Assembly: GCA_020852275.1 (NCBI GenBank)
Contig: JADZBE010000039.1
Coordinates: 124,001 to 188,000 of the forward strand
DNA from: Phycisphaerales bacterium
Lineage (GTDB): Bacteria; Planctomycetota; Phycisphaerae; UBA1845
Length of the DNA: 64,000 bases
Direction: 5' to 3'
Part shown: in pieces, positions 1,137-60,287 of the stretch
Layout of the letters: each line of letters starts with the position of its first letter
Position numbering within the stretch: the first letter of the stretch is position 1
Position numbers and translations under genes: made by a program
Notes under the pieces: generated by a model
The model's input: the letters and a program-made list of their open reading frames with translations, nothing else
Database searches by the model: none
Told to the model about the DNA's origin: nothing

Positions 1137-1185
1137 ACCCTGAACCCTGACCACTGAACCCTGAACCCAGAACCCAGAACCCTGG
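1137..1185 (+). repeat. heptanucleotide array (ACCCTGA type), 7 units
   Basis: Seven consecutive 7-bp units: ACCCTGA, ACCCTGA, CCACTGA, ACCCTGA, ACCCAGA, ACCCAGA, ACCCTGG. It lies in the 480-bp gene-free gap between the truncated gene at the left edge and the end of the hupE-like gene. Apart from this and the palindromic elements I see nothing else in 767-1246. Confidence 0.85.
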
Positions 1186-5046: not shown

Positions 5047-5104
5047 CCGGATCTCGCACGGCGAACGGCGCTCCCTCCGAGCCGCGCCCGTCAGCCATGA
5101 ATGC

Positions 5105-5204
5105 GTGCCACTGCGCTGTGAGCAGTACATGTGTGCCACTGCGCTGTCAGCAGTGCATGTGTGCCACTGCGCTGTCAGCAGTGCATGTGTGCCACTGCGC
5201 TGTG
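5105..5204 (+). repeat. 28-bp tandem repeat, about 3.6 copies
   Basis: Three near-identical 28-bp units start at 5105, 5133 and 5161, with a fourth, diverging unit at 5189. Each contains the palindrome CACTGC-GCTGTCA-GCAGTG. There are no spacers, so this is not a CRISPR array. It lies just after the superoxide dismutase gene in a 709-bp gene-free gap. Confidence 0.9.
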
Positions 5205-15714: not shown

Positions 15715-15824
15715 GGCACAGGTTGGGAAACCTGTGCCACACCCACCGGTTGGGAAACCGGTGCCACACCCACCGGTTGGAAAATCGGTGCCACACACAC
15801 CGGTTGGGAAACCGGTGCCACACC
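15715..15824. repeat. four tandem CACCGGTTGGGAAACCGGTG-type palindromes
   Basis: Four ~30-bp units, each a palindrome of CAGGTT/AACCTG or CCGGTT/AACCGG type followed by CCACA. They fill most of the gap between the convergent glycosylase and zinc-ribbon genes. The same family occurs at 17486, 28227, 30397, 51917 and 4023. Confidence 0.9.
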
Positions 15825-17443: not shown

Positions 17444-17485
17444 GTCCGACCGGCAGAGTGGCGCTCCGCCCGGCCCTGACACAGG

Positions 17486-17596
17486 CTCACAGGTTGGAAA
17501 CCTGTGCTACAGGCTCACAGGATGGAAACCTGTGCCACAGGCTCACAGGTTGGAAACCTGTGCCACAGGATCACGGGTTGGAAACCTGTGCCACAC
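17486..17596. repeat. four tandem CACAGGTTGGAAACCTGTG-type palindromes
   Basis: Four ~30-bp units with the core CACAGGTTGGAAACCTGTG, one with a CAGGATGGAAACCTG change, between the lipoprotein gene and the membrane glycosyltransferase gene. Confidence 0.9.
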
Positions 17597-20703: not shown

Positions 20704-22758
20704 ATGAATCGTCTTCGCCAGGGCGTCGCTTTCCGTCAAATCAACATCTTCGTCTGCGCCAGCGCCGCGCTGACGCTGCTTGCCGGCTGCATGGGGCCCC
20801 CGAAGGTGGTGACCACGGAAACGCTGCTGAAGGAAATGACGGATCTGCGCGGACTGGCGGAGTTCCCCGATCCGCCGTTCACGTGCCGGCAATTCTCCAG
20901 CTACGATCGCGCGTCCGTTTCCGCGGACGACCACGAAAAGTGGTTTGCCAATGGAGATTGCGGGCAATACCTGCGTGAGGAAAAGGTCGGCGAGCGGACG
21001 GAATACGTCATGGCCGACATGGACGGACCGGGCGCGATCGTGCGCATCTGGTCGGCCAACCCGCGCGGCACCATGCGCATTTATCTGGATGGGAAGGAAT
21101 CGCCGGCCGTTGAAAGCCCCATGGCCGATTTTCTCGGCGGCAAGGTCGCATGGAACCCGCCGCCCATTTCCTGCGAAGTCAGCCGCGGGTGGAACAGTTA
21201 TTTTCCCATTCCGTATGCGAAGCACTGCAAGGTGACCAGCGACCAGAAGGACTTCTATTATCACGTCAACTATCGCACATATCCGAAGCGCGCCCGTGTC
21301 AACACATTCGAAGCCGGCGCGCTGGCGGCCGTTGAACCGGTGGTCAAGGATATGTCAAAGCAACTGGCGTCAACCGGACCGGCCGGGGAGCAGTGCCAGG
21401 CATGTTATGGCGCTTCGTGCCGAACGACGCCGATCAACGCCAGTGTGCCGCCCGGCGGCAAGGCGGAGATTGTGGAGCTATCCGGACGAGCGGAAATCAG
21501 AGAGCTTGTATTGCACCTGAATGGGCAGTCCGACCCGGATGTGATGAGAAAACTCATACTTGAAGCGCGATTCGACGGGCGTCCGTGCATCGCCGCGCCG
21601 GTGGGCGACTTCTTCGCCGCTGGACCGGGGTCCAAAGCGTTTGCATCGCTTCCATCAGGGGTCGCAGCGGATGGCACTCTATGGTCGCGGTGGGTGATGC
21701 CCTTCCGCCGCGAGGCGTCGCTTGCGCTCATCAATCATTCCGGAACCGCGGTCAGTGTGACGGGCCGCGCGTGTTCCACGGAGGCGCCCGCCGCAGGCAA
21801 CATGTTGTACTTTCATGCGGCCACCCGTGTCCAGAATCAGGTGCCCACGCGGCCGATGATTGACTGGAATTACCTGACCGCCCAAGGCAAGGGCGTCTTT
21901 GTCGGTGCATCGTTTAATATCGCCAATCCCGTGCGCGAATGGTGGGGCGAGGGGGATGAGAAGATCTTTGTGGACGGCGAGAAGTTTCCGTCGCATTTCG
22001 GCACCGGCACGGAGGATTACTACGGCTATGCGTGGTGCTGCAATGTGCCGTTTCAACACGCTTATCACAACCAGCCGCGCTGCGACGGGCCGCACAATTA
22101 TGGTTACACGTCGGTCAACCGCTGGCACATTATCGACAAGATCCCCTTCAACAAGAGCTTCAAGTTTGACATGGAACTGTGGCATTGGAACCCGGAAACG
22201 AAAGTTGACATGGCCGTGACGGCTTATTGGTATGCCCGCCCGGGGGCGAAGGACGAGTTTCCACCGCTGGATCCGAAGGAGCTTCTCGTCGCGGAGATCC
22301 CGCCGTATGTGGCGCCGCGCACGCCGGGCGCGATCGAGGGTGAGGAGATGACCCTTGTGGAAAAGACCGGCGCGGCCGAGCCGCAGGGGATTTTCCAGTG
22401 CAGCAATGAAGCGCACCTGTGGTGGCACGAAGGCCACAAGATCGGCGACAAGCTGGTGCTGGCTTTCAATGTGCCCGAGGCGGGAGCCTACAACGTGCTG
22501 GGCCGGTTCGTCAAAGCGGCGGATTATGGCGTGCATCAGCTCTATGTCAACGACGTGAAACTCATGGAGCCGTTCGACCTCTATAACAACGGCGTCACGG
22601 TCACGGGTGAGATTGGGTTCGGCAACTTTGAGCTGAAGCAGGGAGAAAATCGGCTGACCGTTGAAGTGGTCGGCGCCAACGAGAAGGCCATTCCGAAGTA
22701 CATGTTCGGGTTGGATTACCTGCGACTGGAGGCGGCTGGAACGGGCGACGGGAAATAG
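20704..22758 (+). CDS. GH172 (DUF2961) family lipoprotein
   Basis: 684 residues. The N terminus ends in the lipobox LLAGC, so the mature protein is membrane-anchored outside the cytoplasm. The DUF2961 core is clear: 'SSYDRASVSADDHEKWFANGDCGQYLREE', 'MADMDGPGAIVRIWSANPRGTMRIYLDG', and 'WWGEGDEKIFVDGE...HFGTGTEDYYGYAW'. DUF2961 is now glycoside hydrolase family 172, acting on alpha-fructofuranoside or D-arabinofuranoside links. The two Glu in the GEGDE and GTEDYY motifs are 21 residues apart, matching what I recall for the catalytic pair of a characterised GH172 enzyme. A C-terminal ~150-residue beta-sandwich follows. The stop codon lies inside a heptad array. Confidence 0.88.
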   Translation: MNRLRQGVAFRQINIFVCASAALTLLAGCMGPPKVVTTETLLKEMTDLRGLAEFPDPPFTCRQFSSYDRASVSADDHEKWFANGDCGQYLREEKVGERTEYVMADMDGPGAIVRIWSANPRGTMRIYLDGKESPAVESPMADFLGGKVAWNPPPISCEVSRGWNSYFPIPYAKHCKVTSDQKDFYYHVNYRTYPKRARVNTFEAGALAAVEPVVKDMSKQLASTGPAGEQCQACYGASCRTTPINASVPPGGKAEIVELSGRAEIRELVLHLNGQSDPDVMRKLILEARFDGRPCIAAPVGDFFAAGPGSKAFASLPSGVAADGTLWSRWVMPFRREASLALINHSGTAVSVTGRACSTEAPAAGNMLYFHAATRVQNQVPTRPMIDWNYLTAQGKGVFVGASFNIANPVREWWGEGDEKIFVDGEKFPSHFGTGTEDYYGYAWCCNVPFQHAYHNQPRCDGPHNYGYTSVNRWHIIDKIPFNKSFKFDMELWHWNPETKVDMAVTAYWYARPGAKDEFPPLDPKELLVAEIPPYVAPRTPGAIEGEEMTLVEKTGAAEPQGIFQCSNEAHLWWHEGHKIGDKLVLAFNVPEAGAYNVLGRFVKAADYGVHQLYVNDVKLMEPFDLYNNGVTVTGEIGFGNFELKQGENRLTVEVVGANEKAIPKYMFGLDYLRLEAAGTGDGK

Positions 22759-22808
22759 GGAAAAGGGAATAGGCAACAGGCATTAGGCAATAGGCAGTAG
22801 GTAATGGG
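22753..22808 (+). repeat. heptanucleotide array (NNNNAGG type), 8 units
   Basis: Eight 7-bp units: AAATAGG, GAAAAGG, GAATAGG, CAACAGG, CATTAGG, CAATAGG, CAGTAGG, TAATGGG. The first unit contains the stop codon of the GH172 gene and the last contains the ATG of the transporter gene, so the array is the entire intergenic spacer. Confidence 0.92.
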
Positions 22809-23613
22809 CATGTCCACGTCGTCCTCGCAAGCAGGCGATAATTTGCTCGACGCGCGGCACGTCGAGAACAGGCGCCATTACCAATACTACGATCTGGTCA
22901 TGGCTGCGTTCGTTACCGTGCTTCTGTGCTCGAACATGATCGGGCCTGGAAAGTCGTGCGCGATCAACCTTGGGCTGAATGTGGTTCCCGACTGGACGCG
23001 GGCTTCCGGGTGGACGTTTTCCTCGCTCCTCGTCTTTGGCGCCGGCAATCTCTTTTTCCCCATCAGCTACATCTTTGGCGACATCCTCACCGAAGTTTAT
23101 GGTTATGCGCGGGCGCGGAAGGTCATCTGGGCGGGCTTCGTGGCCATGCTCTTTTATGTATTGATGAGCCAGGTCGTCATCCACATGCCGACCCATCCGC
23201 AGGAGCCGTACAATGAGGTCATCCAGCCGGCGCTGGTCACGGTGTTCGGCAACGGGTGGCGCATCGTGTCGGCCTCGATCCTCGCCTTCTGGGCGGGCGA
23301 CTTCGCCAATTCATTCGTGCTCGCAAAGATGAAAGTGCTGACCCGAGGCCGCTGGCTGTGGACGCGCACGATCGGCTCGACGCTGGTGGGGCAGGCCGTG
23401 GACAGCGTCATCTTCTACCCGCTTGCCTTTGCGGGTCTGTGGCAGACCGACACCATGGTGCGCGTGGTGGTGTTCAATCTGGCGTTTAAGGTGTGCGTGG
23501 AGATTGTCTTCACACCGCTCACGTATTTTGTGGTGAATACCCTGAAGCGCGTGGAGAACGAAGACTACTACGACCGCGCGACGAATTTCACGCCCTTTTC
23601 GCTGCGCGACTGA
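22804..23613 (+). CDS. queuosine precursor transporter (VUT/YhhQ family)
   Basis: 269 residues with about six membrane helices. Family blocks: 'FGAGNLFFPISYIFGDILTEVYGYARARKVIWAGF' and 'WTRTIGSTLVGQAVDSVIFYPLAFAG'. The family imports the queuine/preQ1 precursor for tRNA modification. The ATG at 22804 and a second one at 22810 are both possible. There is no classic ribosome-binding site because the upstream DNA is a heptad array. No queuosine synthesis genes are adjacent. Confidence 0.88.
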   Translation: MGMSTSSSQAGDNLLDARHVENRRHYQYYDLVMAAFVTVLLCSNMIGPGKSCAINLGLNVVPDWTRASGWTFSSLLVFGAGNLFFPISYIFGDILTEVYGYARARKVIWAGFVAMLFYVLMSQVVIHMPTHPQEPYNEVIQPALVTVFGNGWRIVSASILAFWAGDFANSFVLAKMKVLTRGRWLWTRTIGSTLVGQAVDSVIFYPLAFAGLWQTDTMVRVVVFNLAFKVCVEIVFTPLTYFVVNTLKRVENEDYYDRATNFTPFSLRD

Positions 23614-23636
23614 CGAGCTCGGCGCCGCGCGGCGAC

Positions 23637-23685
23637 CATTCAGCATTCTGCATTCGTCATTCGCGCTTCGCCATTCGCCATTCAT
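23637..23685. repeat. heptanucleotide array (CATTCNN type), 7 units
   Basis: CATTCAG, CATTCTG, CATTCGT, CATTCGC, GCTTCGC, CATTCGC, CATTCAT. It fills the gap between the convergent transporter and agmatinase genes. The last unit contains the agmatinase stop codon (23682-23684). Confidence 0.92.
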
Positions 23686-26033: not shown

Positions 26034-28229
26034 ATGGATGGGGATGGGTCGATGAGCGCAGCTACGAGCATTCGGACACATCGAGGGCGCGGCGGGGACG
26101 CGCCGGGACAGCGCCGCGCTGCGGTCCTGGGCGGGAGCCCCGACAGCGCCGTCGCCAGTGAGGACCGCTCACACGTTCGCCGGCTGTGCTCCGCCGCCGT
26201 GTTCATGGCGCTGAGCGCGCTGCTGATGTCCTCCTGCGCTTCGACGCGCGGGCGCGACGGGGCATCGGTCCGGGGCTTGCAGACCAGCGACTCCGGAGAG
26301 TTTCGGCATGAAGGCGCGGGCGGCGTCGAGCCGATGCGCGAACTCATCGAGCGTTTCTCGACGGACCGCCAGGCCTTGTCGCGTTTCTACAGAGTCAGCG
26401 GGTCGCGCCAACGCGAGGAGCGGCTCAGCGGCTTCTTGCAGACGTGGCTGCAGCGCGTCGAGGGCGTCGATTTCAACGCGCTCGATCAGCAGGGTCGAGT
26501 GGATTACATCCTCTTCCGCCACGAGCTGAATTATCAACTGGCCCAGTTGAAGCACGAGCGCCGCAAGTGGGACGAGGTGGCCGCGTGCATTCCCTTCGCC
26601 GAGTCGATCATCGACATGGAGGAAACGCGCTGGCGGCTGGAGGCGGTGGACTCGCGGCAGGCCGCGGATCGCGTCAACGGCATCTTGAAAAGCGTTAAAG
26701 ACGTCCGCAAGCGGATCGACGAGGGACGCAAGGTCGGTCCGCCTGGCGCGGGTCCGAACGCGACTTCGCCGTTCGGCACGCCGCTGGATTCGGAACCCGA
26801 CGCCGAAGTTGCTCCGCTGCCGTCAACGTCTTCGCAGCCCTCGCCGCCGCTGCAAACTCCCTCCTCACCGCAGTCGACGCCAGCGCCGCCGCAGGCGCCG
26901 ACGCCGGCGACCGGATCGGGGGGTGCGACGCCCGCTTCATCCGCCGCGGAGAAAGTCGAACCGCTGCCGGTCAGTCCCGTCCTGGCGGTTCGCGCCGCGG
27001 CGAAGATCGACGGGCTGCGCCAGGCGCTGCGAACATGGTTCAGTTACAACGACGGCTTTCAGCCGGACTTTTCGTGGTGGGTGCGGAGGCCCTTCGAGGA
27101 CGCGGACAAGGCGCTCGACGAGTACGCCAAGTTTCTTCGCGAGGAAGTCGCCGGGGTCAAGGGCAAGGACGAGGATCCGCTGATCGGCGACCCCATCGGC
27201 GCCGAGGCGCTGCGCGACGACCTGGCGCATGAGATGATGCCCTACGCGCCGGTGGAACTGCTGGCGATCGCCGAAGCTCAGTTCGCCTGGTGCGAAGCGG
27301 AGATGAAAAAGGCCGCCGAGGAGTTGAAGCTGCCCGACTGGAAGGCCGCCCTCGAGCATGTCAAAAACCTGCACGTGCCGCCGGGCGAGCAGAGCGCGCT
27401 GGTGGCGCGGCAGGCGGTGGAGGCGATCGCGTTTCTCGATCAGCGCGACCTCGTGACGATCCCCGACCTGTGCCGCGAGCTGTGGCGGCTGGAGATGATC
27501 GACGACCGCGGGCAGCGCACTCATCCGTTTGCCTACTACGGCGATCAGCACATGGCCGTGGCGTATGCCATGCAGAGCATGGAGCACGACAAGAAGCTCA
27601 TGGCCATGCGCGGGAACAACATCCACTTTTCGCGCAACGTCACGCCGCACGAGCTGATTCCGGGGCATCATCTTCAAGGATTCATGGCCGACCGGTTCCG
27701 ACCGTATCGGCAGGCGTTCACCACGCCGTTCTTCATCGAGGGGTGGGCGCTGCACTGGGAGATGCTGCTGTGGGATCTGGACTACGCGCGTGGACCGGAG
27801 GACCGCATCGGGATGCTGTTCTGGCGGATGCATCGGGCGGCGCGGATCATCGTGTCGCTGAAGTTCCACTTGGGGCAGATGCAGCCGCCGGAGATGATCG
27901 ACTTTCTCGTGGATCGGGTCGGGCACGAGCGCGACAACGCGACAAGCGAGGTGCGGCGGTACATCGGCGGGGATTACAGCCCGTTGTACCAGTGCGGGTA
28001 CCTGATCGGCGGGCTGCAGATCCGCGCGCTGCATCATCAACTCGTGGACGGCGGCCGCGTGACGAACCGAGAATTTCACGACGCCGTGCTGCGCGTGGGG
28101 CCAATCCCGATTGAAATGCTCCGCGCGCTGCTGCTCGAAGTGCCGCTCACGCGGAATTACGAGGCGTGCTGGCGGTTCATGGATGAGCGCGCGGGGGAGG
28201 GGGCACCGGCGGCGATGCCGGGGAGATGA
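26034..28229 (+). CDS. DUF885 family lipoprotein, putative metallopeptidase
   Basis: 731 residues. A lipobox (LLMSSC) about 50 residues in predicts an exported lipoprotein with a long N-terminal region. The DUF885 hallmark HELIPGHHLQGF (HExxxGH-type, presumed zinc site) is at about residue 540. It is preceded by long helical segments and followed by 'EGWALHWEMLLWDLDYARGPEDRIGMLFWRMHRAARI'. A Pro/Ser/Thr-rich linker at about 250-305 interrupts the helical part. The start at 26034 has AGGAG eight bases upstream. The longer frame reads through a repeat. Peptide substrate unknown. Confidence 0.82.
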   Translation: MDGDGSMSAATSIRTHRGRGGDAPGQRRAAVLGGSPDSAVASEDRSHVRRLCSAAVFMALSALLMSSCASTRGRDGASVRGLQTSDSGEFRHEGAGGVEPMRELIERFSTDRQALSRFYRVSGSRQREERLSGFLQTWLQRVEGVDFNALDQQGRVDYILFRHELNYQLAQLKHERRKWDEVAACIPFAESIIDMEETRWRLEAVDSRQAADRVNGILKSVKDVRKRIDEGRKVGPPGAGPNATSPFGTPLDSEPDAEVAPLPSTSSQPSPPLQTPSSPQSTPAPPQAPTPATGSGGATPASSAAEKVEPLPVSPVLAVRAAAKIDGLRQALRTWFSYNDGFQPDFSWWVRRPFEDADKALDEYAKFLREEVAGVKGKDEDPLIGDPIGAEALRDDLAHEMMPYAPVELLAIAEAQFAWCEAEMKKAAEELKLPDWKAALEHVKNLHVPPGEQSALVARQAVEAIAFLDQRDLVTIPDLCRELWRLEMIDDRGQRTHPFAYYGDQHMAVAYAMQSMEHDKKLMAMRGNNIHFSRNVTPHELIPGHHLQGFMADRFRPYRQAFTTPFFIEGWALHWEMLLWDLDYARGPEDRIGMLFWRMHRAARIIVSLKFHLGQMQPPEMIDFLVDRVGHERDNATSEVRRYIGGDYSPLYQCGYLIGGLQIRALHHQLVDGGRVTNREFHDAVLRVGPIPIEMLRALLLEVPLTRNYEACWRFMDERAGEGAPAAMPGR

Positions 28230-28354
28230 CTGCACAGGTTGGAAAACCTGTGCCACAGCCACCGGTTGGAAACCGGTGCCACAGCGCCCGGGGGGATGCC
28301 TGCACAGGTTGGAAAACCTGTGCCACAGCCACCGGTTGGAAACCGGTGCCACAC
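28227..28354. repeat. four CACCGG/CACAGG palindromes in two pairs
   Basis: A 66-bp block (one CAGGTT...AACCTG and one CACCGG...CCGGTG palindrome) is repeated twice, between the DUF885 and ABC permease genes. Confidence 0.9.
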
Positions 28355-30289: not shown

Positions 30290-31354
30290 GTGTCGGTCGC
30301 GGTTTCGATCCGGCGATGCGCGCGGGTGGCAGCCCGTGGTGAGAACCTGCTGGAGCGGGTTTCCAGCACCTTCGCCCCCAAAGCATGCGGAGGAAACACC
30401 GGCTGGAAAGCCGGTGCCCCACATGGGAGTGGCTTTCACCACCGACTGATAGGCCTTGTTCCGCTGTTCTGCGTCTTGTCCGGATGCAAGCCGCCGGCGA
30501 TGTCGGACAACGGCGTGGTGGCCGTCTTCGGGGGCGTGGGACGCGGACCGGGCGAGTTCAGCTACCCGCGCGCCATCACGGCTGAAAAGAACGGTTCGCT
30601 GTTCGTCGTGGACAAGGCCGGTCGCGTGCAGCGCTTCTCCCCTGAAGGGCGGTACGAGCTGGAGTGGACCCTGCCGCAGACCGAGCACGGCAAGCCGGTG
30701 GGCCTCGCCGTGCACGCCGACGGTCGCATCTTCATTGCCGACACACACTATCACCGGGTGATGATCTATGACCGCGACGGGCGTCTCCTGGGGCAGTTCG
30801 GCGAGGAGGGCGACGGGCCGGGGCAGTTTCAACTTCCGACGGATATTGCGTTCGACGCGGAAGGTTTCGTGTATGTGAGCGAATATCAGGGCAACGACCG
30901 GATCACGCGCTGGTCGCCGGGGCTGGAATACGTTTCCCAGATGGGGCGTGAGCCGATCAACGGCGTGCCGCTGCGGCGCCCGGCCGGGATCGACGTGGAC
31001 CGGGACGGGACGCTGTGGGTGGCGGATGCGTGCAACCATCGCGTGGTCGGTTTCAGCCGTGACGGGGAAGTGCTGAAGGTTTTCGGCGAGTTCGGCAAGG
31101 CGAACGGCAGGCTCGACTACCCGTATGACCTGCACGTCTCGCCCGACGACGCGACGCTGATGGTGTGCGAGTACGGATCGAATCGGTTACAGTGGTTCCG
31201 CAAGGACGGGACGTTCGTGAAGAGCTGGGGCGAGAGCGGTCGGCAGCCGGGGCAGCTCTGGGCGCCGTGGGGCGCGACCTACGGGCCGGGAGGGCGCGTG
31301 TACGTGGTGGATTCGCTCAACAGCAGGGTGCAGGTGGTTGGGGCCGGCAGCTAG
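30290..31354 (+). CDS. NHL-repeat beta-propeller lipoprotein-like protein
   Basis: About 354 residues from the GTG at 30290, which has GGAGG upstream. From about residue 75 there are six NHL-type blades, each of the form 'P.GIAVD.DG.I.VAD..N.RV..F..DG' (for example 'KPVGLAVHADGRIFIADTHYHRVMIYDRDGRLLGQFG'). A hydrophobic run with the lipobox VLSGC is present only at about residues 52-67, preceded by a repeat-derived peptide (GWKAGAPH). There is no ATG/GTG/TTG close to this signal. Either the N terminus was altered by repeat insertion, or translation starts at the CTG just before it. Function unknown. Confidence 0.65.
   Translation: MSVAVSIRRCARVAARGENLLERVSSTFAPKACGGNTGWKAGAPHGSGFHHRLIGLVPLFCVLSGCKPPAMSDNGVVAVFGGVGRGPGEFSYPRAITAEKNGSLFVVDKAGRVQRFSPEGRYELEWTLPQTEHGKPVGLAVHADGRIFIADTHYHRVMIYDRDGRLLGQFGEEGDGPGQFQLPTDIAFDAEGFVYVSEYQGNDRITRWSPGLEYVSQMGREPINGVPLRRPAGIDVDRDGTLWVADACNHRVVGFSRDGEVLKVFGEFGKANGRLDYPYDLHVSPDDATLMVCEYGSNRLQWFRKDGTFVKSWGESGRQPGQLWAPWGATYGPGGRVYVVDSLNSRVQVVGAGS
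30397..30416. repeat. CACCGG palindrome within the 5' part of the NHL gene
   Basis: CACCGGCTGGAAAGCCGGTG, perfect 6-bp arms, located between the GTG start and the lipoprotein signal of the NHL gene. Confidence 0.9.
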
Positions 31355-31398
31355 CTTTCGGCTGGTTGCTGCTAGCTGCTGGCTGCAAGCTGCCGGCC
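31350..31398 (+). repeat. heptanucleotide array (NNNNGCT type), 7 units
   Basis: GCTAGCT, TTCGGCT, GGTTGCT, GCTAGCT, GCTGGCT, GCAAGCT, GCCGGCC. The stop codon of the NHL gene (31352-31354) is inside the first unit. Confidence 0.88.
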
Positions 31399-31508
31399 AG
31401 CCGCAGGCGGTCGTGCGTTGGAAGTTTGCGCAAGGGGCCGGCCGGATGCGAAGCGGACGCTGCTTTCCCGTGCGTAAGCCTCCTTGCGAGAGTGGGTGTC
31501 AACGGAAC

Positions 31509-31530
31509 CGCTTCCTTGCGGGCGCGGCGC
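31509..31530 (+). repeat. single family-C half-element
   Basis: CGCTTCCTTGCGGGCGCGGC type sequence in the gap between the NHL and VWA genes. Confidence 0.75.
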
Positions 31531-31593
31531 GGAGATCACGGGTTCCCGGAAGGCGTGATGGCTTCCAAAACGTGCTCGGCGTTCATCGGTATG

Positions 31594-31621
31594 GCTAGCA
31601 GCTAGCAGCTAGCAGCTAACA
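31594..31621 (+). repeat. heptanucleotide array (GCTAGCA type), 4 units
   Basis: GCTAGCA three times and GCTAACA once, ending 9 bp before the ATG of the large VWA gene. It is related to the NNNNGCT array at the other end of the same gap. Confidence 0.9.
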
Positions 31622-31630
31622 GCACGCTTC

Positions 31631-34600
31631 ATGTTGATGGTTTCGCTGGCATTGCCGTTTTCCTTCGAGCAGCCCCCATGGTTGTGGCTGCTGCTGCTCA
31701 TTCCGGCGCTGGTGCTGGCGTCGCTTCGCAGTCTTGCGGGGCTGGATCCACTGCGTCGCGTGCTGGCGCTGGCGGTTCGCGCGGGGGTGGTGGCGCTGCT
31801 GGTGGCCTGCCTTGCCCGCGTGCAGTTCGTGCGGCGCAACGAGGACGTGACGGTCATGTTCCTGATGGACCGTTCCTTCTCCTGCGAGGGGATGACGGCG
31901 CAGGTCGAGGAGTTTCTCACGGCGGTCGCCAAGCCCGGCGAGATCCCCAAGAACGACCGCGTCGGCATGATCGACTTCGCCCGCGAAGGCTTCCTTCAGC
32001 AGCTTCCCATGACCGGCGGCTACCACATCGAGCCGGGTCGCCTGCCCCAGATGCCCGGCACGGACCACACCGACCTGTCCGCGGCCGTGCGCCTGGCGAT
32101 GGCCATGTTCCCGCATGACGCCGCCAAGCGCGTCGTACTCATCTCCGACGGCAATGAGAACCTCGGCGACATTTTGACGGAGGCGCGCCGCGCCAAGGCC
32201 GACGGCATCGTCATCGACGTCGTGCCGCTGCACTATGAGAAGACGAACGACGTGGGCTTCGACCGGCTGATCGCGCCGAGCCGCGCGGAGAAGGGTGAGC
32301 AGGTGCCGATCCGCATGGTGCTCAGCACGCACCGGCGCGTGTCGGGCACGGTGGACGTGTATCAGAACGGCGAGCTGGTGCAGATCCCCGGCAACGACGC
32401 GCACATCGAGCTGTCGCCGGGCACGAACACGATGTTCCTGCGGCTGCCGGTCAACGAGACCGGCGCGCAGGTGTTCGAGGCGCGCTTCCGCCCGGATGAT
32501 GAAACGCTCGACGCCGTCACGTTCAACAACAACGCGACCACCTTTTCGTTCGTCTCCGGTCCCAGCCGCATCCTTTTCCTGAGCAAGGACCTCCCCGCCG
32601 ACGCGCCGCTCATCGACGCCCTGCGCAGCGAAAACATCGAGGTCGAGCCGGTTGAAGCCGCTTCCGCCGCACTCGACCTGCTCAAGCTTCAGAGCTACTC
32701 GGCGATCATCCTCGCCAACGTGCCCGCTTCCGACTTCACGGACGACCAGATGAAGGACATGGCCGCGTATGTGAAGGACATGGGCGGCGGACTGGTGATG
32801 CTCGGCGGGGACGAGGGCTTCGGCGCGGGTGGCTGGATCGGTACGCCGATCGAGGAAATCATGCCCGTCTCTTTCGAGATCAAGCACAAGCGGGTGATTC
32901 CCCGCGGCGCGCTGGTCATCATCTGCCACAGTTGCGAAATCCCGCGCGGCAACTACTGGGGCAAGGAGATGGCCAAGAAAAGCGTGGACACCGTCAGCTC
33001 GCGCGACTACCTCGGCGTGCTGGCGTACTCGTACTCGCCCGGCGGCGTGAGCTGGGAGGTTCCGCTCGCCGAGGCCGCCAACAAGGGCGCGGTCAAGGCG
33101 CGCATCGACCGCATGCAGAACGGCGACATGCCGGACTTCGACTCGACGATGCAGATGGCCTACGACGGGCTGACCACCGGCCGCGGGCGCGACGCGGCGC
33201 AGAAGCACGTCATCATCATCAGCGACGGCGACCCCTCCGCGCCGAACCGCGGACTCATCCAGAGCTACAAGAACGCGGGCATCACCGTCAGCACGATCGG
33301 CATCGGCTGGGGCGCGCACGTTATGACCACCGAGCTGCAGCGCATCGCCACGGACACGGGCGGGCGGTTCTATTCGCCGAAAAGCCCGAACCAGCTCCCG
33401 CAGATTTTCACCAAGGAATCCAAGGTCGTGCGCCGCTCGCTGATCACCGAGGAAGCGTTTCGACCGCGCGTGTTTCATTCCCTCAGCGATCTGCTGGCCG
33501 GCGTCCCACCGGAGGATGTTCCGGTGCTCGGCGGCCTGGTGCTGACCTCGCCGAAGGAGAGCACGAACGTGCAGTTGCCGCTGGTGCGCTCGACGGAGGA
33601 CGGCGACGACCCGGTGCTGGCCCACTGGCAATATGAGCTGGGCAAGACGGTCGCCTTCACCAGCGGGCAGTGGCCTCGATGGGGCAATGCGTGGACGTCC
33701 TGGCCTCAGTATTCCAAGCTCTGGGCGCAGATCGTCCGCTGGTGCATGAGGCAGGACGCGCCGGCCAACTTCGACACCTACACGCGCGTCGAGGGCGGCA
33801 AGGGGCGGGTGGTGATCGATGCCCTCGACAAGGACGCGGCGTATCTCAACTTCCTTCAGTTTCGATCCCTGGTGACGCAGCCGGATCGCAAGGCCGTCCC
33901 GCTGGAGTTCAAGCAGACCGGGCCCGGTCATTACGAGGCCGAGTTCGACGTGGACCAGATGGGTCAGTACCTCGTCACGTCGCAGGTGTTGGAGGGCGGA
34001 GAGGCGCGCGGGGCGATCCAGACAGGCGTGTCGGCGCCGTATTCCCCGGAGTACCGCGACCTGACGACCAACATGCCGCTGCTGTCGAGCATCGCGGACA
34101 TCACGGGCGGCACGGTGATGGAACTCGATGCGAAGACGGCCAAGCCGTTCCGCAAGGACCTTCCGCCGACGGAGTCTCATCGCCCCGCGTGGGAGTTTGT
34201 GCTGGCGTGGATGCTGCTGCCGCTGTTCCTGCTGGACGTGGCCGTGCGGCGGCTGGCGAGCTGGCTGGCGCTGTCGATCGCGGTGGAGGTCGTGGTGCTG
34301 GCGTTCCTGCTGTTCGGTCTGAATTGGGCGGTGCATCCGACGTTTTTCGGGATCGTGCGCGGGGCGGCGTTGGCGTTCGTCCTCGCGGAGGTCGTCGGCT
34401 GGGCGATACGCTGGAGATACATCCGATCGATCTTTGACTACTTCACGCACGGCACGGTGGCGCTGGCACAGGCCGGCGAGCGGAGCACGGCCTCGCTGGA
34501 GCAGCTGCGCGGGACGCATGACCGCGTGAAAGAGGATTTGGCTTCGGACAAGGCGTCCGGCGTGCGGCGCATCGCGAAGAAGGAACCGGCGGAGCAGGCT

Positions 34601-34825
34601 GCTACGGGCCGGGAGCGGTATGATGTGGGGGAGGAAGCGGCCAAAGCCCCGGCGGGCGACTTGGCCGAGGCGGTCGGCGGTGCAAAGTCGGGCGTCGCGC
34701 CGCCGGCGGAAAAGCGTCGCAAGCCGGCCGGCGCGGGCGGCGCGGAGCAGCCGGAGGAGGAAACAACCTCGCGCCTGCTGGCGGCGAAGCGCAAGGCGAG
34801 AGAGGGTCTGGACAAGAAAGAGTGA
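31631..34825 (+). CDS. large membrane protein with VWA and GATase1-like domains
   Basis: 1064 residues. Two N-terminal helices are followed by a VWA domain with a MIDAS-type DRSFS (residues ~75-235), a CARDB-like beta region, a glutamine-amidotransferase-like segment around 315-410 ('FLSKDLPADAPLIDALRSENIEVEPVE', 'MGGGLVMLGGDEGFGAGGW'), more VWA-like sequence ('HVIIISDGDPSAPN', ~520), C-terminal helices (about 850-920) and a charged Ala/Lys/Glu tail. Such proteins accompany MoxR ATPases and DUF58 proteins and may assemble or regulate envelope complexes. The gene begins the MoxR cluster; the next genes are a toxin-antitoxin pair. There is no good ribosome-binding site because a heptad array precedes it. 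Confidence 0.82.
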   Translation: MLMVSLALPFSFEQPPWLWLLLLIPALVLASLRSLAGLDPLRRVLALAVRAGVVALLVACLARVQFVRRNEDVTVMFLMDRSFSCEGMTAQVEEFLTAVAKPGEIPKNDRVGMIDFAREGFLQQLPMTGGYHIEPGRLPQMPGTDHTDLSAAVRLAMAMFPHDAAKRVVLISDGNENLGDILTEARRAKADGIVIDVVPLHYEKTNDVGFDRLIAPSRAEKGEQVPIRMVLSTHRRVSGTVDVYQNGELVQIPGNDAHIELSPGTNTMFLRLPVNETGAQVFEARFRPDDETLDAVTFNNNATTFSFVSGPSRILFLSKDLPADAPLIDALRSENIEVEPVEAASAALDLLKLQSYSAIILANVPASDFTDDQMKDMAAYVKDMGGGLVMLGGDEGFGAGGWIGTPIEEIMPVSFEIKHKRVIPRGALVIICHSCEIPRGNYWGKEMAKKSVDTVSSRDYLGVLAYSYSPGGVSWEVPLAEAANKGAVKARIDRMQNGDMPDFDSTMQMAYDGLTTGRGRDAAQKHVIIISDGDPSAPNRGLIQSYKNAGITVSTIGIGWGAHVMTTELQRIATDTGGRFYSPKSPNQLPQIFTKESKVVRRSLITEEAFRPRVFHSLSDLLAGVPPEDVPVLGGLVLTSPKESTNVQLPLVRSTEDGDDPVLAHWQYELGKTVAFTSGQWPRWGNAWTSWPQYSKLWAQIVRWCMRQDAPANFDTYTRVEGGKGRVVIDALDKDAAYLNFLQFRSLVTQPDRKAVPLEFKQTGPGHYEAEFDVDQMGQYLVTSQVLEGGEARGAIQTGVSAPYSPEYRDLTTNMPLLSSIADITGGTVMELDAKTAKPFRKDLPPTESHRPAWEFVLAWMLLPLFLLDVAVRRLASWLALSIAVEVVVLAFLLFGLNWAVHPTFFGIVRGAALAFVLAEVVGWAIRWRYIRSIFDYFTHGTVALAQAGERSTASLEQLRGTHDRVKEDLASDKASGVRRIAKKEPAEQAATGRERYDVGEEAAKAPAGDLAEAVGGAKSGVAPPAEKRRKPAGAGGAEQPEEETTSRLLAAKRKAREGLDKKE

Positions 34826-34892
34826 AGATTGGGTCGGGCGGGGCGGCCGTGAAAAGGTCGCGCCGCGTGCCGTGGGCGACGGGACATGGATC

Positions 34893-35210
34893 ATGGTCGC
34901 AATGAACAGGGTCAGGGAACTCAGCGATCGCATTGTTCAAGAGTTTGATCCGGAGAAGATCATTCTCTTTGGATCGCACGCGTACGGTGCGCCGAAAGAG
35001 TACTCCGACGTGGATTTGCTGGTGCTCATGCCGTTTGAGGGAAGTTCGTTCGACCAGGCGACGGCGATCATCGAGCGCATCCATCCCGGCTACTACGTAG
35101 ATGTGATCGTCCGGAGTCCCGATGACGCGATGCGGAGGTACCGGGAGTTCGATCCGTTGATACGGACCGCTCTCGAACGAGGGAAGGTGCTCTATGCCCG
35201 GAGCCGCTGA
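34893..35210 (+). CDS. MNT-type nucleotidyltransferase (antitoxin candidate)
   Basis: 105 residues. The minimal nucleotidyltransferase signature GSHAYGAPKEYSDVDLLVL (GS...DxD) is at about residues 27-45. MNT proteins pair with HEPN proteins as antitoxins, in studied cases by adding AMP to the HEPN toxin. The frame overlaps the downstream HEPN gene by 17 bp. The ATG at 34893 or 34902 may be used. The pair is inserted between the VWA gene and the moxR gene. Confidence 0.85.
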   Translation: MVAMNRVRELSDRIVQEFDPEKIILFGSHAYGAPKEYSDVDLLVLMPFEGSSFDQATAIIERIHPGYYVDVIVRSPDDAMRRYREFDPLIRTALERGKVLYARSR

Positions 35211-35580
35211 AGAGTGGATCGCCAAAGCCGAAGGCGATATGCACGTGGCTGAGCGCGAGTTTCATCGCGCGGACGATCAGAACTTTGACGCTGTTTGCTT
35301 TCACGTCCACCAGTGCGTTGAGAAGCTGATGAAGGCTGTGTTGATCACCCACGGAATCGCTCCGGAGTACACTCATAACTTGGTATATCTGGACGCCGCT
35401 TTGCAGAAGGTTGCACCTTGGATCTCCGATCCGGACGAATTGAACGGGCTGAAGCGGGCCGGGGTGGCATTTTGGTACCCTGGAGAATGGGCGACCCACG
35501 CCCATGCGTCGCGCGCGATGTCGATAGGACAGCGCCTCCGCGAAGCGCTTTTGCGGATGCTGAACGAAAGGAGCGCGTAG
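35194..35580 (+). CDS. HEPN domain protein (toxin candidate)
   Basis: 128 residues, all-helical. 'FHVHQCVEKLMKAVLITHGIAPEYTHNLVYL' is the typical HEPN core seen in MNT-linked proteins. A classical R-x4-6-H RNase motif is not obvious; the C-terminal 'WATHAHASRAMSIGQRLREALL' is the nearest candidate. Its start overlaps the MNT gene by 17 bp. Confidence 0.85.
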   Translation: MPGAAEEWIAKAEGDMHVAEREFHRADDQNFDAVCFHVHQCVEKLMKAVLITHGIAPEYTHNLVYLDAALQKVAPWISDPDELNGLKRAGVAFWYPGEWATHAHASRAMSIGQRLREALLRMLNERSA

Positions 35581-35626
35581 GCTCCACTCCGTGGGCGCGA
35601 GAGGCATTGGAAAAGAAGGAAAAACG

Positions 35627-35668
35627 GAAAGCTGCTTGCTGCCGGCAGTCGGCTACAAGCCAGTGCAG
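35627..35668 (+). repeat. degenerate heptad array (NNNNGCT type), about 6 units
   Basis: GAAAGCT, GCTTGCT, GCCGGCA, GTCGGCT, ACAAGCC, AGTGCAG. A decayed relative of the array at 31350, downstream of the HEPN gene. Confidence 0.6.
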
Positions 35669-35723
35669 AGCGAGCAACCACGTGTCAAAATCGGGTTGAT
35701 GTTGGGATTGAATGGCGAACAGC

Positions 35724-35751
35724 TAGCAGCGAGCAGCCTGCAGCGTCTTCA
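35724..35751 (+). repeat. heptad array (GCNNGCA type), 3-4 units
   Basis: GCTAGCA, GCGAGCA, GCCTGCA, then GCGTCTT, ending 17 bp before the moxR ATG. Confidence 0.75.
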
Positions 35752-35768
35752 AGCACGGAGTGAATCGC

Positions 35769-36785
35769 ATGGCAACGACGATTGATCCGGCGGTGGAAAA
35801 GGCCACGCAGGAGTTCCGGCATAAGTTCAACAAGCTCAAGGAGGAGATCGGCAAGGCCATTGTCGGTCAGACGGAGATTGTGGACGGCGTGCTGACGTGC
35901 CTGTTCACCGGCGGGCACGTGCTGCTGGAAGGCGTGCCGGGGCTGGGGAAGACGTATCTGATTCGCACGCTGGCGGAGGCCGTGCAACTGGATTTTTCGC
36001 GCATTCAGTTCACGCCGGACCTCATGCCCGCGGACATCATCGGGACCAACATTGTCATGGAGGACGCCGAAACCGGGCGTCGGCATTTTCAGTTCCAGAA
36101 GGGCCCGATCTTCGCGCAGATCGTGCTCGCGGACGAAGTGAACCGCGCCACGCCCAAGACGCAGTCGGCCATTCTGGAAGCCATGCAGGAAAAGAGCGTC
36201 ACCGTCGCGGGCACGACCTACAAGCTTAAGCACCCGTTTTTTGTGATGGCGACGCAAAACCCCATCGAGCAGGAGGGCACGTACCCTCTGCCCGAGGCGC
36301 AGCTCGACCGTTTCATGTTCAAGATCGTGGTGGAATATCCCACCAAGGACGAGGTTAAGACCATTCTCGACCGCACGACCACCGGTTTTTCGCCGCAGAT
36401 CACGCGGGTCATGACGGGCGATGAAATCCTCGGGGCGCAAAACCTCGTGCGCCGCGTGGTCATGGCGCCGCACGTGCAGGATTACGCCGTGCGCCTCGCG
36501 ATGGCGTCGCACCCCGGCGGGCCGTTCGCCATTGAGGAAACCAACAAATACGTGCGCTGGGGCGTGAGCCCGCGCGCGGCGCAGGCGCTCACGCTGGGCG
36601 GGAAACTGTACGCCCTGCTCGATGGCCGGTTCAACGCCAGCTTCAGCGACGTGAAGAAGGTGTACCTGCCCGCGATGCGCCACCGCATGTTGCTCAACTT
36701 CGAGGGCGAGGCGGAGGGGATCACCACGGATGACGTCCTGCGGCTGATTCTGGATAAAACGCCCACGCTGGCGGAGGCGGCGTGA
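35769..36785 (+). CDS. MoxR-family AAA+ ATPase
   Basis: 338 residues. Walker A is GVPGLGKT (about residue 55), Walker B 'IVLADEVNRATPKTQSAILEAMQE', sensor 1 'VMATQNPIEQEGTYPLPEAQLDRFMF'. This is the AAA_3 MoxR group, chaperone-like ATPases acting with VWA proteins. The start at 35769 is supported by GGAG at eight bases. The related cluster members DUF58, BatA-like VWA and large VWA/GATase lie in the same direction but are separated by toxin-antitoxin genes and a transposase gene. Confidence 0.95.
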   Translation: MATTIDPAVEKATQEFRHKFNKLKEEIGKAIVGQTEIVDGVLTCLFTGGHVLLEGVPGLGKTYLIRTLAEAVQLDFSRIQFTPDLMPADIIGTNIVMEDAETGRRHFQFQKGPIFAQIVLADEVNRATPKTQSAILEAMQEKSVTVAGTTYKLKHPFFVMATQNPIEQEGTYPLPEAQLDRFMFKIVVEYPTKDEVKTILDRTTTGFSPQITRVMTGDEILGAQNLVRRVVMAPHVQDYAVRLAMASHPGGPFAIEETNKYVRWGVSPRAAQALTLGGKLYALLDGRFNASFSDVKKVYLPAMRHRMLLNFEGEAEGITTDDVLRLILDKTPTLAEAA

Positions 36786-50847: not shown

Positions 50848-50943
50848 CGAGCCAGGCAGTCTGCGGCGAGCGGGGCAAGACCATGGCCAACGGAGTACCG
50901 TAGGCCATGCCTCCCGCCGCGCAGGCGGAAACCCAGCTTCGGC

Positions 50944-51042
50944 ATTCCCGCGCAGGCGGGAATCCAGCTTCGTCATATTCGCGTAGGCGGGAATCCAGCG
51001 GCGTGACGGCGCGCCCGGGACTCCTGCTTGCGCGGGGGTGAC
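50944..51042 (+). repeat. ATTCCC palindrome and partial MITE-like element (copy E)
   Basis: 50944-50963 is a perfect ATTCCC-N8-GGGAAT palindrome. 50973-51042 is a 70-bp shortened version of the ~101-bp element ending GCGCGGGGGTGAC. Main content of the 312-bp gap between convergent genes. Confidence 0.75.
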
Positions 51043-53366: not shown

Positions 53367-53477
53367 GTGTGAGTCCGAGATTGCTCGGACTTGACGGCAG
53401 AATCCGTGAAAAACGTCCGTCTGGGCCCTTGTGTAAGGCCACCCAGCAACCGGACTGAGTCGTTTTTCGCAAGGAGG
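53367..53477 (+). ncRNA. structured 5' leader, possible cis-regulatory RNA
   Basis: Hairpin 1: AGTCCGAG-ATTG-CTCGGACT (53372-53391), at the predicted 5' end. Hairpin 2 is a long nested stem 53408-53468: GAAAAACG/CGTTTTTC, TCCG/CGGA, CTGGG/CCCAG and CCTT/AAGG with a GTGT loop. AAGGAGG follows directly at 53471-53477. It matches no riboswitch class I know. Confidence 0.6.
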
Positions 53478-53482
53478 CTGCG

Positions 53483-53605
53483 ATGACATCGCAAGCCCTG
53501 TATCGAAACGGGGGTCCGGCAAGTCCGTGCGCCGCGGACCCGAGACCCGAGACCCGAGACCCGAGACCCGAGACCCGAGACCCGAGACCCGAGACCCGAG
53601 CCTGA
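53483..53605 (+). CDS. short ORF with strong ribosome-binding site, running through a heptad array
   Basis: 40 codons from the ATG at 53483, five bases after AAGGAGG. It translates 9 units of the heptad repeat as a Pro/Arg/Thr/Glu-rich peptide and stops at TGA 53603. The frame is +1-related to that of the secreted protein starting at 53641: one extra 7-bp unit would fuse the two. It may be the true but currently out-of-frame start of that protein, or a leader peptide. Confidence 0.5.
   Translation: MTSQALYRNGGPASPCAADPRPETRDPRPETRDPRPETRA
53537..53599 (+). repeat. heptanucleotide array (GACCCGA), 9 perfect units
   Basis: Nine identical tandem copies of GACCCGA, the only perfect heptad array in the window, between the strong start at 53483 and the signal peptide at 53641. 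Confidence 0.95.
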
Positions 53606-53640
53606 AGGCTCGAACCGGATTCGCTAGGAGGGCCACACTC

Positions 53641-60221: not shown

Positions 60222-60287
60222 GCACTGCTCACAGAGCAGGGGCATGCGGCACTGCTCTCAGAGCAGGGGCACCCGGCACTGCTCGCG
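60222..60287 (+). repeat. 27-bp tandem repeat, about 2.5 copies
   Basis: Units at 60222-60248 and 60249-60275 plus a partial third, each with GCACTGCT...AGAGCAG, related in design to the 28-bp array at 5105. From about 60343 to 60441 a degenerate ~18-bp repeat (GGTCNGTGNRTG type) leads to the MFS gene start. Confidence 0.8.

Follow-up and report, generated by a model that had tools for sequence, protein, structure and literature searches.

Short polarised heptanucleotide arrays at gene ends in a planctomycete genome

Short tandem heptamers, known as STRR sequences, occupy intergenic spacers in heterocystous cyanobacteria. The arrays described here are likewise tandem heptamers of spacers, in a different organism, a planctomycete, and with different units. 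In Xanthomonas and Nostoc, the heptamers GGGAATC and GGGGA(C/T)T, respectively, are in intergenic excess (Rehm et al. 2015, PMC4692102). They lie closer to the 5′ neighbouring ORF whatever the orientation of that ORF, preferentially ≤50 bp from stop codons, some of which they overlap, and they prefer gaps between aligned genes; Xanthomonas heptamers also form convergent inverted pairs, and array length varies at sites conserved between species (PMC4692102). G-quadruplexes were discussed and function was left open (Rehm et al. 2015, PMC4692102). In Beggiatoaceae, TAACTGA direct repeats are dispersed over the genome in intergenic regions, with some overlapping ORFs (MacGregor 2015, PMC4679880). 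Those two papers (PMC4679880, PMC4692102) cite Mrazek et al. 2007 for the finding that heptanucleotides are the commonest class and for the proposal of polymerase slippage; going by those citations, long simple sequence repeats (units of 5–11 nt) are delimited statistically and not as a particular element, and the present arrays share with them a period-7 excess and whole-unit copy-number change. Subirana and Messeguer 2019 (PMC6749651) also mention satellites derived from heptamers, among them GATAGRA in Chloroflexus. The earlier reports gave heptamer excess and polarity in a few bacteria, with a discussion of G-quadruplexes and without a mechanism.

The arrays of the Phycisphaerales genome studied here (G000) are of this known kind, because heptamer arrays have already been described in Xanthomonas, Nostoc and Beggiatoaceae. 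The original prediction was right to liken them to heptameric repeats of other bacteria, the Xanthomonas and Nostoc arrays sharing both position and polarity (PMC4692102). Tandem intergenic heptamers, polarity, occurrence in gaps between aligned genes, stop proximity or overlap and convergent pairs are all present in G000, which differs in having several unit families, most without GGG, in replacing the unit at orthologous sites, and in phylum. Like the Beggiatoaceae repeats, the arrays are intergenic tandem heptamers dispersed over the genome; unlike them, they use many units, and stop-proximal arrays are their commonest near-edge class, whereas the Beggiatoaceae repeats have a single fixed unit, usually just 5′ of start codons. 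The TAACTGA unit was absent from the 54 G000 arrays. Convergent inverted pairs in spacers are a feature shared with REP/REPIN-RAYT systems, but the arms in G000 are tandem heptamers and array abundance is unrelated to RAYT-type (Y1_Tnp) transposases. The additions made here are a new phylum, the coexistence of several unit families in one genome, units that lack a GGG tract, and conserved sites where one unit has given way to another, in one case in both arms. The same architecture, with GGG-less units and in another phylum, argues against G-quadruplexes as a general cause.

The window, by which we mean the whole 64,000-nt stretch analysed (G000:C39:124001-188000), belongs to a genome of 5.05 Mb in 43 contigs; G+C is 65%. 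Seven of eight array positions proposed originally were found by TRF (Table 1), the one at 35627 being undetected at score 30. Two of the seven are weak: the array at 31368-31393 (score 38), which is the left arm of an inverted pair, and the one at 35715. Under a fixed scan, five of the listed period-7 arrays pass strictly, and every other period from 4 to 13 yields at most one array in the window. The G-rich strand of the first array has its 5′ end 64 nt from the stop of a minus-strand gene (1247-2236). As had been claimed, one array forms a whole intergenic spacer: the 45 nt between the GH172 gene and queT are array throughout, continuing into the ATG at 22804, although the true queT start is uncertain because a second ATG stands at 22810. 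Phycisphaerae and other Planctomycetota genomes carry the nearest relatives of the queT protein; searches with this protein found no synteny around them, and the comparison of this spacer between species covers its GH172 side. The claim that three stops lie inside terminal units stood for GH172, whose TAG is in the first units, and for agmatinase, whose TGA overlaps the first unit, but not for the NHL gene, whose stop (31352-31354) precedes a degenerate array by about 7 nt. The NHL-propeller, vWA and MoxR genes are found together (30500-36785), with a Pfam bpMoxR match, as in MoxR-vWA-beta-propeller ternary systems.

Table 1. Period-7 arrays and associated features in the window
Feature	Position	Strand	Basis
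Period-7 array, unit AACCCTG on + (G-rich strand -, AGGGTTC)	1137..1184	-	TRF score 68
GGCAAYA-family period-7 array; fills GH172-queT spacer, overlaps GH172 stop	22754..22810	+	TRF score 58
TAG stop of GH172/DUF2961 gene, within array	22756..22758	+	ORF call; Pfam DUF2961
GAATGNN-family period-7 array; reads away from agmatinase gene, overlaps agmatinase stop	23636..23683	-	TRF score 47
TGA stop of agmatinase (arginase family), overlaps array	23682..23684	-	ORF call; Pfam
Inverted pair, left arm, unit GCTGCTA, ~7 nt past NHL stop	31361..31393	.	
Inverted pair, right arm, unit GCTAGCA, 7 nt 5′ of vWA gene	31594..31623	.	TRF score 53
Weak period-7 array, GCGAGCA / AGCTAGC family, upstream of MoxR gene	35715..35745	.	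TRF score 34
Nine perfect GACCCGA units inside dispersed leader element	53537..53600	-	TRF score 128
Dispersed leader element, conserved upstream part, GACCCGA array at end	53380..53536	+	Five further full/partial genome matches, 86-94% identical

Genome statistics were drawn from stretches totalling 1.61 of the 5.05 Mb of G000, in which genes were called with a simple custom codon-usage caller; stops are exact and starts approximate, and a few long genes called across arrays are probably spurious. Seven is the commonest short period in this sample, with 54 arrays (33.5/Mb) against 21 for period 8 (13.0/Mb) and eight for period 6 (5.0/Mb), and a 5th-order Markov control gave no period-7 arrays. 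The period-7 excess expected by the original prediction was therefore present, and the short period-7 arrays of G000 are real. The majority are intergenic; of 40 such arrays, 13 have a stop codon no more than 6 nt away, compared with 5.2 expected if arrays were placed at random in those gaps (p=0.0002), which upholds the anticipated bias toward gene ends. That position had been called unexplained; it is real but not new, having been found in Xanthomonas and Nostoc (Rehm et al. 2015, PMC4692102). Gaps between co-directional genes bear arrays more often (31/543) than other gaps (5/292; Fisher p=0.007), with 3/145 for gaps between convergent genes. A terminator role was rejected, as convergent-gene gaps show no array enrichment, and so was a universal three-frame stop, GAATGGC being open in every frame when the sequence is read.

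The gene-end bias might be an artefact, if reading frames ran into an array and ended at its internal stops. Some units do contain TAG or TGA, and the C-terminal tail (MTNGE) of a histidine kinase is array-encoded (G000:C25:13871-13930). However, agmatinase, Rieske and GH172 orthologues in sister species end at the same place, within a few residues, despite absent or different arrays, and the polarity described below also holds at start codons; we consider this reading very unlikely.

Polarity was scored on whichever strand had an excess of G over C. Of 28 arrays, 25 have the 5′ end of this G-rich strand toward the nearer coding sequence (p=2.7e-5); a looser cut gives 36 of 40. In co-directional gaps, accordingly scored, the sense strand is G-rich in 25 stop-nearer arrays versus 4, and C-rich in 15 start-nearer arrays versus 4 that are G-rich. 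The sister species G003 gave 20/21 for arrays chosen by the GGCAAYA pattern, ten of them ≤10 nt from a stop; the more distant G015 gave a non-significant 11/16. Loci matching a GAATG pattern in several family genomes, with a few duplicate loci included, gave 17/20 (p=0.003). Arrays of period 15 showed no polarity (10/17). The 21 period-8 arrays of the 1.61-Mb sample, themselves in excess, have a polarity that is alike but non-significant (9/12).

At least four unrelated heptamers had been proposed. Several units indeed occur, but they form recurring families (GAATGNN, GGCAAYA, AGGGTTC, GGATTTC, AGCTAGC and CTCGGGT), and some arrays shift family in register: GGCAAYA passes into GCGAATG in the array at C20:12049, and GAATGGC into AAAGCCG at C23:5113, with the register kept in both. 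Heptamer diversity is largely drift within families. GAATGNN is dominant in G000, with 146 overlapping matches to a four-unit pattern and none in the control; it is present in 19 of 51 family genomes, many being without it, and GGCAAYA is commoner in G003 and G015. These two commonest families have no GGG tract. Directional outward growth halted by coding sequence was rejected, since the younger end that it predicts is absent from unit identity: no growth end was found inside arrays (identity 0.906 versus 0.907 for the two halves, n=111). Array flanks showed no clear difference between ends (p=0.08).

Orthologous sites were compared between G000 and three sister species, four species of one genus in all. 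On the 3′ side of the GH172 gene, a GGCAAYA array with the TAG stop is present in all four, and the sequence further downstream differs. The site at C4:111501 has one family in all four, ranging from about 3 to 16 units (about 7 in G000 and about 16 in G003). GAACCCT units lie upstream of gcvPA in all four, most of them in G000, with 8 versus about 3 at the gcvPA start. The unit itself differs on the 3′ side of the Rieske gene, GAATGNN in G000 and GGCAACA in G003, and in the NHL-vWA gap, where an inverted AGCTAGC pair in G000 corresponds to inverted GAATTAC/GAATGAC arms in the three sister species. The 3′ sides of the agmatinase, C20 and C23 genes have no array or only traces in sister species; at the agmatinase stop, no GAATGNN array was found in the orthologues of the three sister species. 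Across the four species, an array's site is thus usually kept even as its length and unit vary; some arrays are confined to one species. One genus with shared sites and differing units and lengths is a natural system for measuring array origin.

Paralogous sites gave a second comparison. The array of GACCCGA units at 53537 is part of a dispersed leader, about 157 bp long, of which the genome has six or more copies, full or partial. At a single fixed point, between flanks that are 86-94% identical, the copies hold nine units, six, three plus three variant ones, and about two, a whole-unit change in place. A short open frame (MTSQALYR...) is also conserved in the leader region (53380-53640), upstream of the next gene.

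Neighbouring arrays of one family in opposite orientation (<400 bp apart) are convergent (GAATG...CATTC) in 20 of 22 cases, and the two non-convergent cases each join the right arm of one pair to the left arm of the next. Convergent pairs are predicted to form stable hairpins, with folding z mostly between -3 and -10. The arms of the NHL-vWA pair differ together between species. Arm matching within the GAATG family was non-significant in G000 alone (p=0.12, n=9); covariation of arms across all genomes reached a significant value, partly owing to genome-specific units. Stable predicted hairpins of this kind, together with the strong position and polarity rule (20/21 in G003) and the retention of several sites in four species, are what would be expected if the arrays were selected RNA or DNA elements—3′-end hairpins, terminators, mRNA stabilisers or G-quadruplexes—whose place and orientation by stops and starts were set by selection. 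On the other hand, arrays are enriched in co-directional (31/543) and not in convergent (3/145) gaps, unlike terminators, the unit sequence is swapped at conserved sites, and many arms are single, with a partner undetected. Moreover, GAATGNN and GGCAAYA have no GGG tract and therefore no stable three-tetrad quadruplex. Selection of this kind is possible, but we consider it rather doubtful.

The explanation that we judge the best, and moderately probable, is that slippage adds and removes 7-bp units in place, in spacers that tolerate this, and that inverted arms form hairpins. Whole units would be gained and lost during replication slippage, and co-directional spacers would tolerate arrays right up to the coding sequence, where a neighbouring stop or start codon could join a unit. 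Point mutation and repeated local turnover would let the unit sequence drift with the 7-bp register kept. Convergent inverted pairs may form hairpins, and their arms may stay matched, most simply by template switching between them. That 7-bp units come and go in place within tolerated spacers is well supported; that slippage drives this, and that templates are switched between arms, we infer. Several points count against this explanation. Slippage alone predicts neither polarity nor the preference for seven. Species differ genome-wide in the favoured heptamer (GAATGNN in G000, GGCAAYA in G003 and G015), a pattern not predicted if each locus slips independently. The non-significant arm matching within the GAATG family of G000 and the lack of an identity gradient pointing to a growth end also count against it.

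The original prediction had suggested a replication- or repair-linked process that builds 7-bp units. Paralogous and orthologous sites support a process that gains and loses such units in place; a dedicated machine is not supported, by the array counts given below. Such a machine, acting in trans (a telomerase-like reverse transcriptase, a RAYT-type transposase or other), would write heptamers, with the dominant unit reflecting its template or recognition site. A dominant unit family does exist in several genomes, and at the Rieske site the unit is each species' favourite. Across 51 family genomes, however, array counts are uncorrelated with Y1_Tnp (rho 0.21, p=0.13) and with RVT_1 (rho 0.08, p=0.58), the array-rich G003 has no RVT_1 match, and the array-rich G015 has one weak Y1_Tnp match only, so that this reading seems very unlikely. 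A further alternative replaces generic slippage by a mechanism that is dedicated or, at the least, undiscovered: a sequence-independent process working in 7-bp steps, with fixed strand polarity relative to coding sequences, a unit replaceable in both inverted arms, and arrays pulled to a species-specific heptamer. We regard it as improbable.

Apart from the heptamers, the window contains other repeats. A palindromic unit of 26-28 bp, CACAGGTTGGAAACCTGTGCCACAG, with a variable core, is found in tandem in the spacers at 15717-15824, 17480-17595 and 28218-28353, and tandem units resembling the CACAGGTTGGAAACCTGTGCCACAG palindromes are found at 5090-5203 and 60222-60284. REP-like 31-bp tandem repeats, GCAGGCGGGAATCCA, lie at 965-1039 and 50917-50999.
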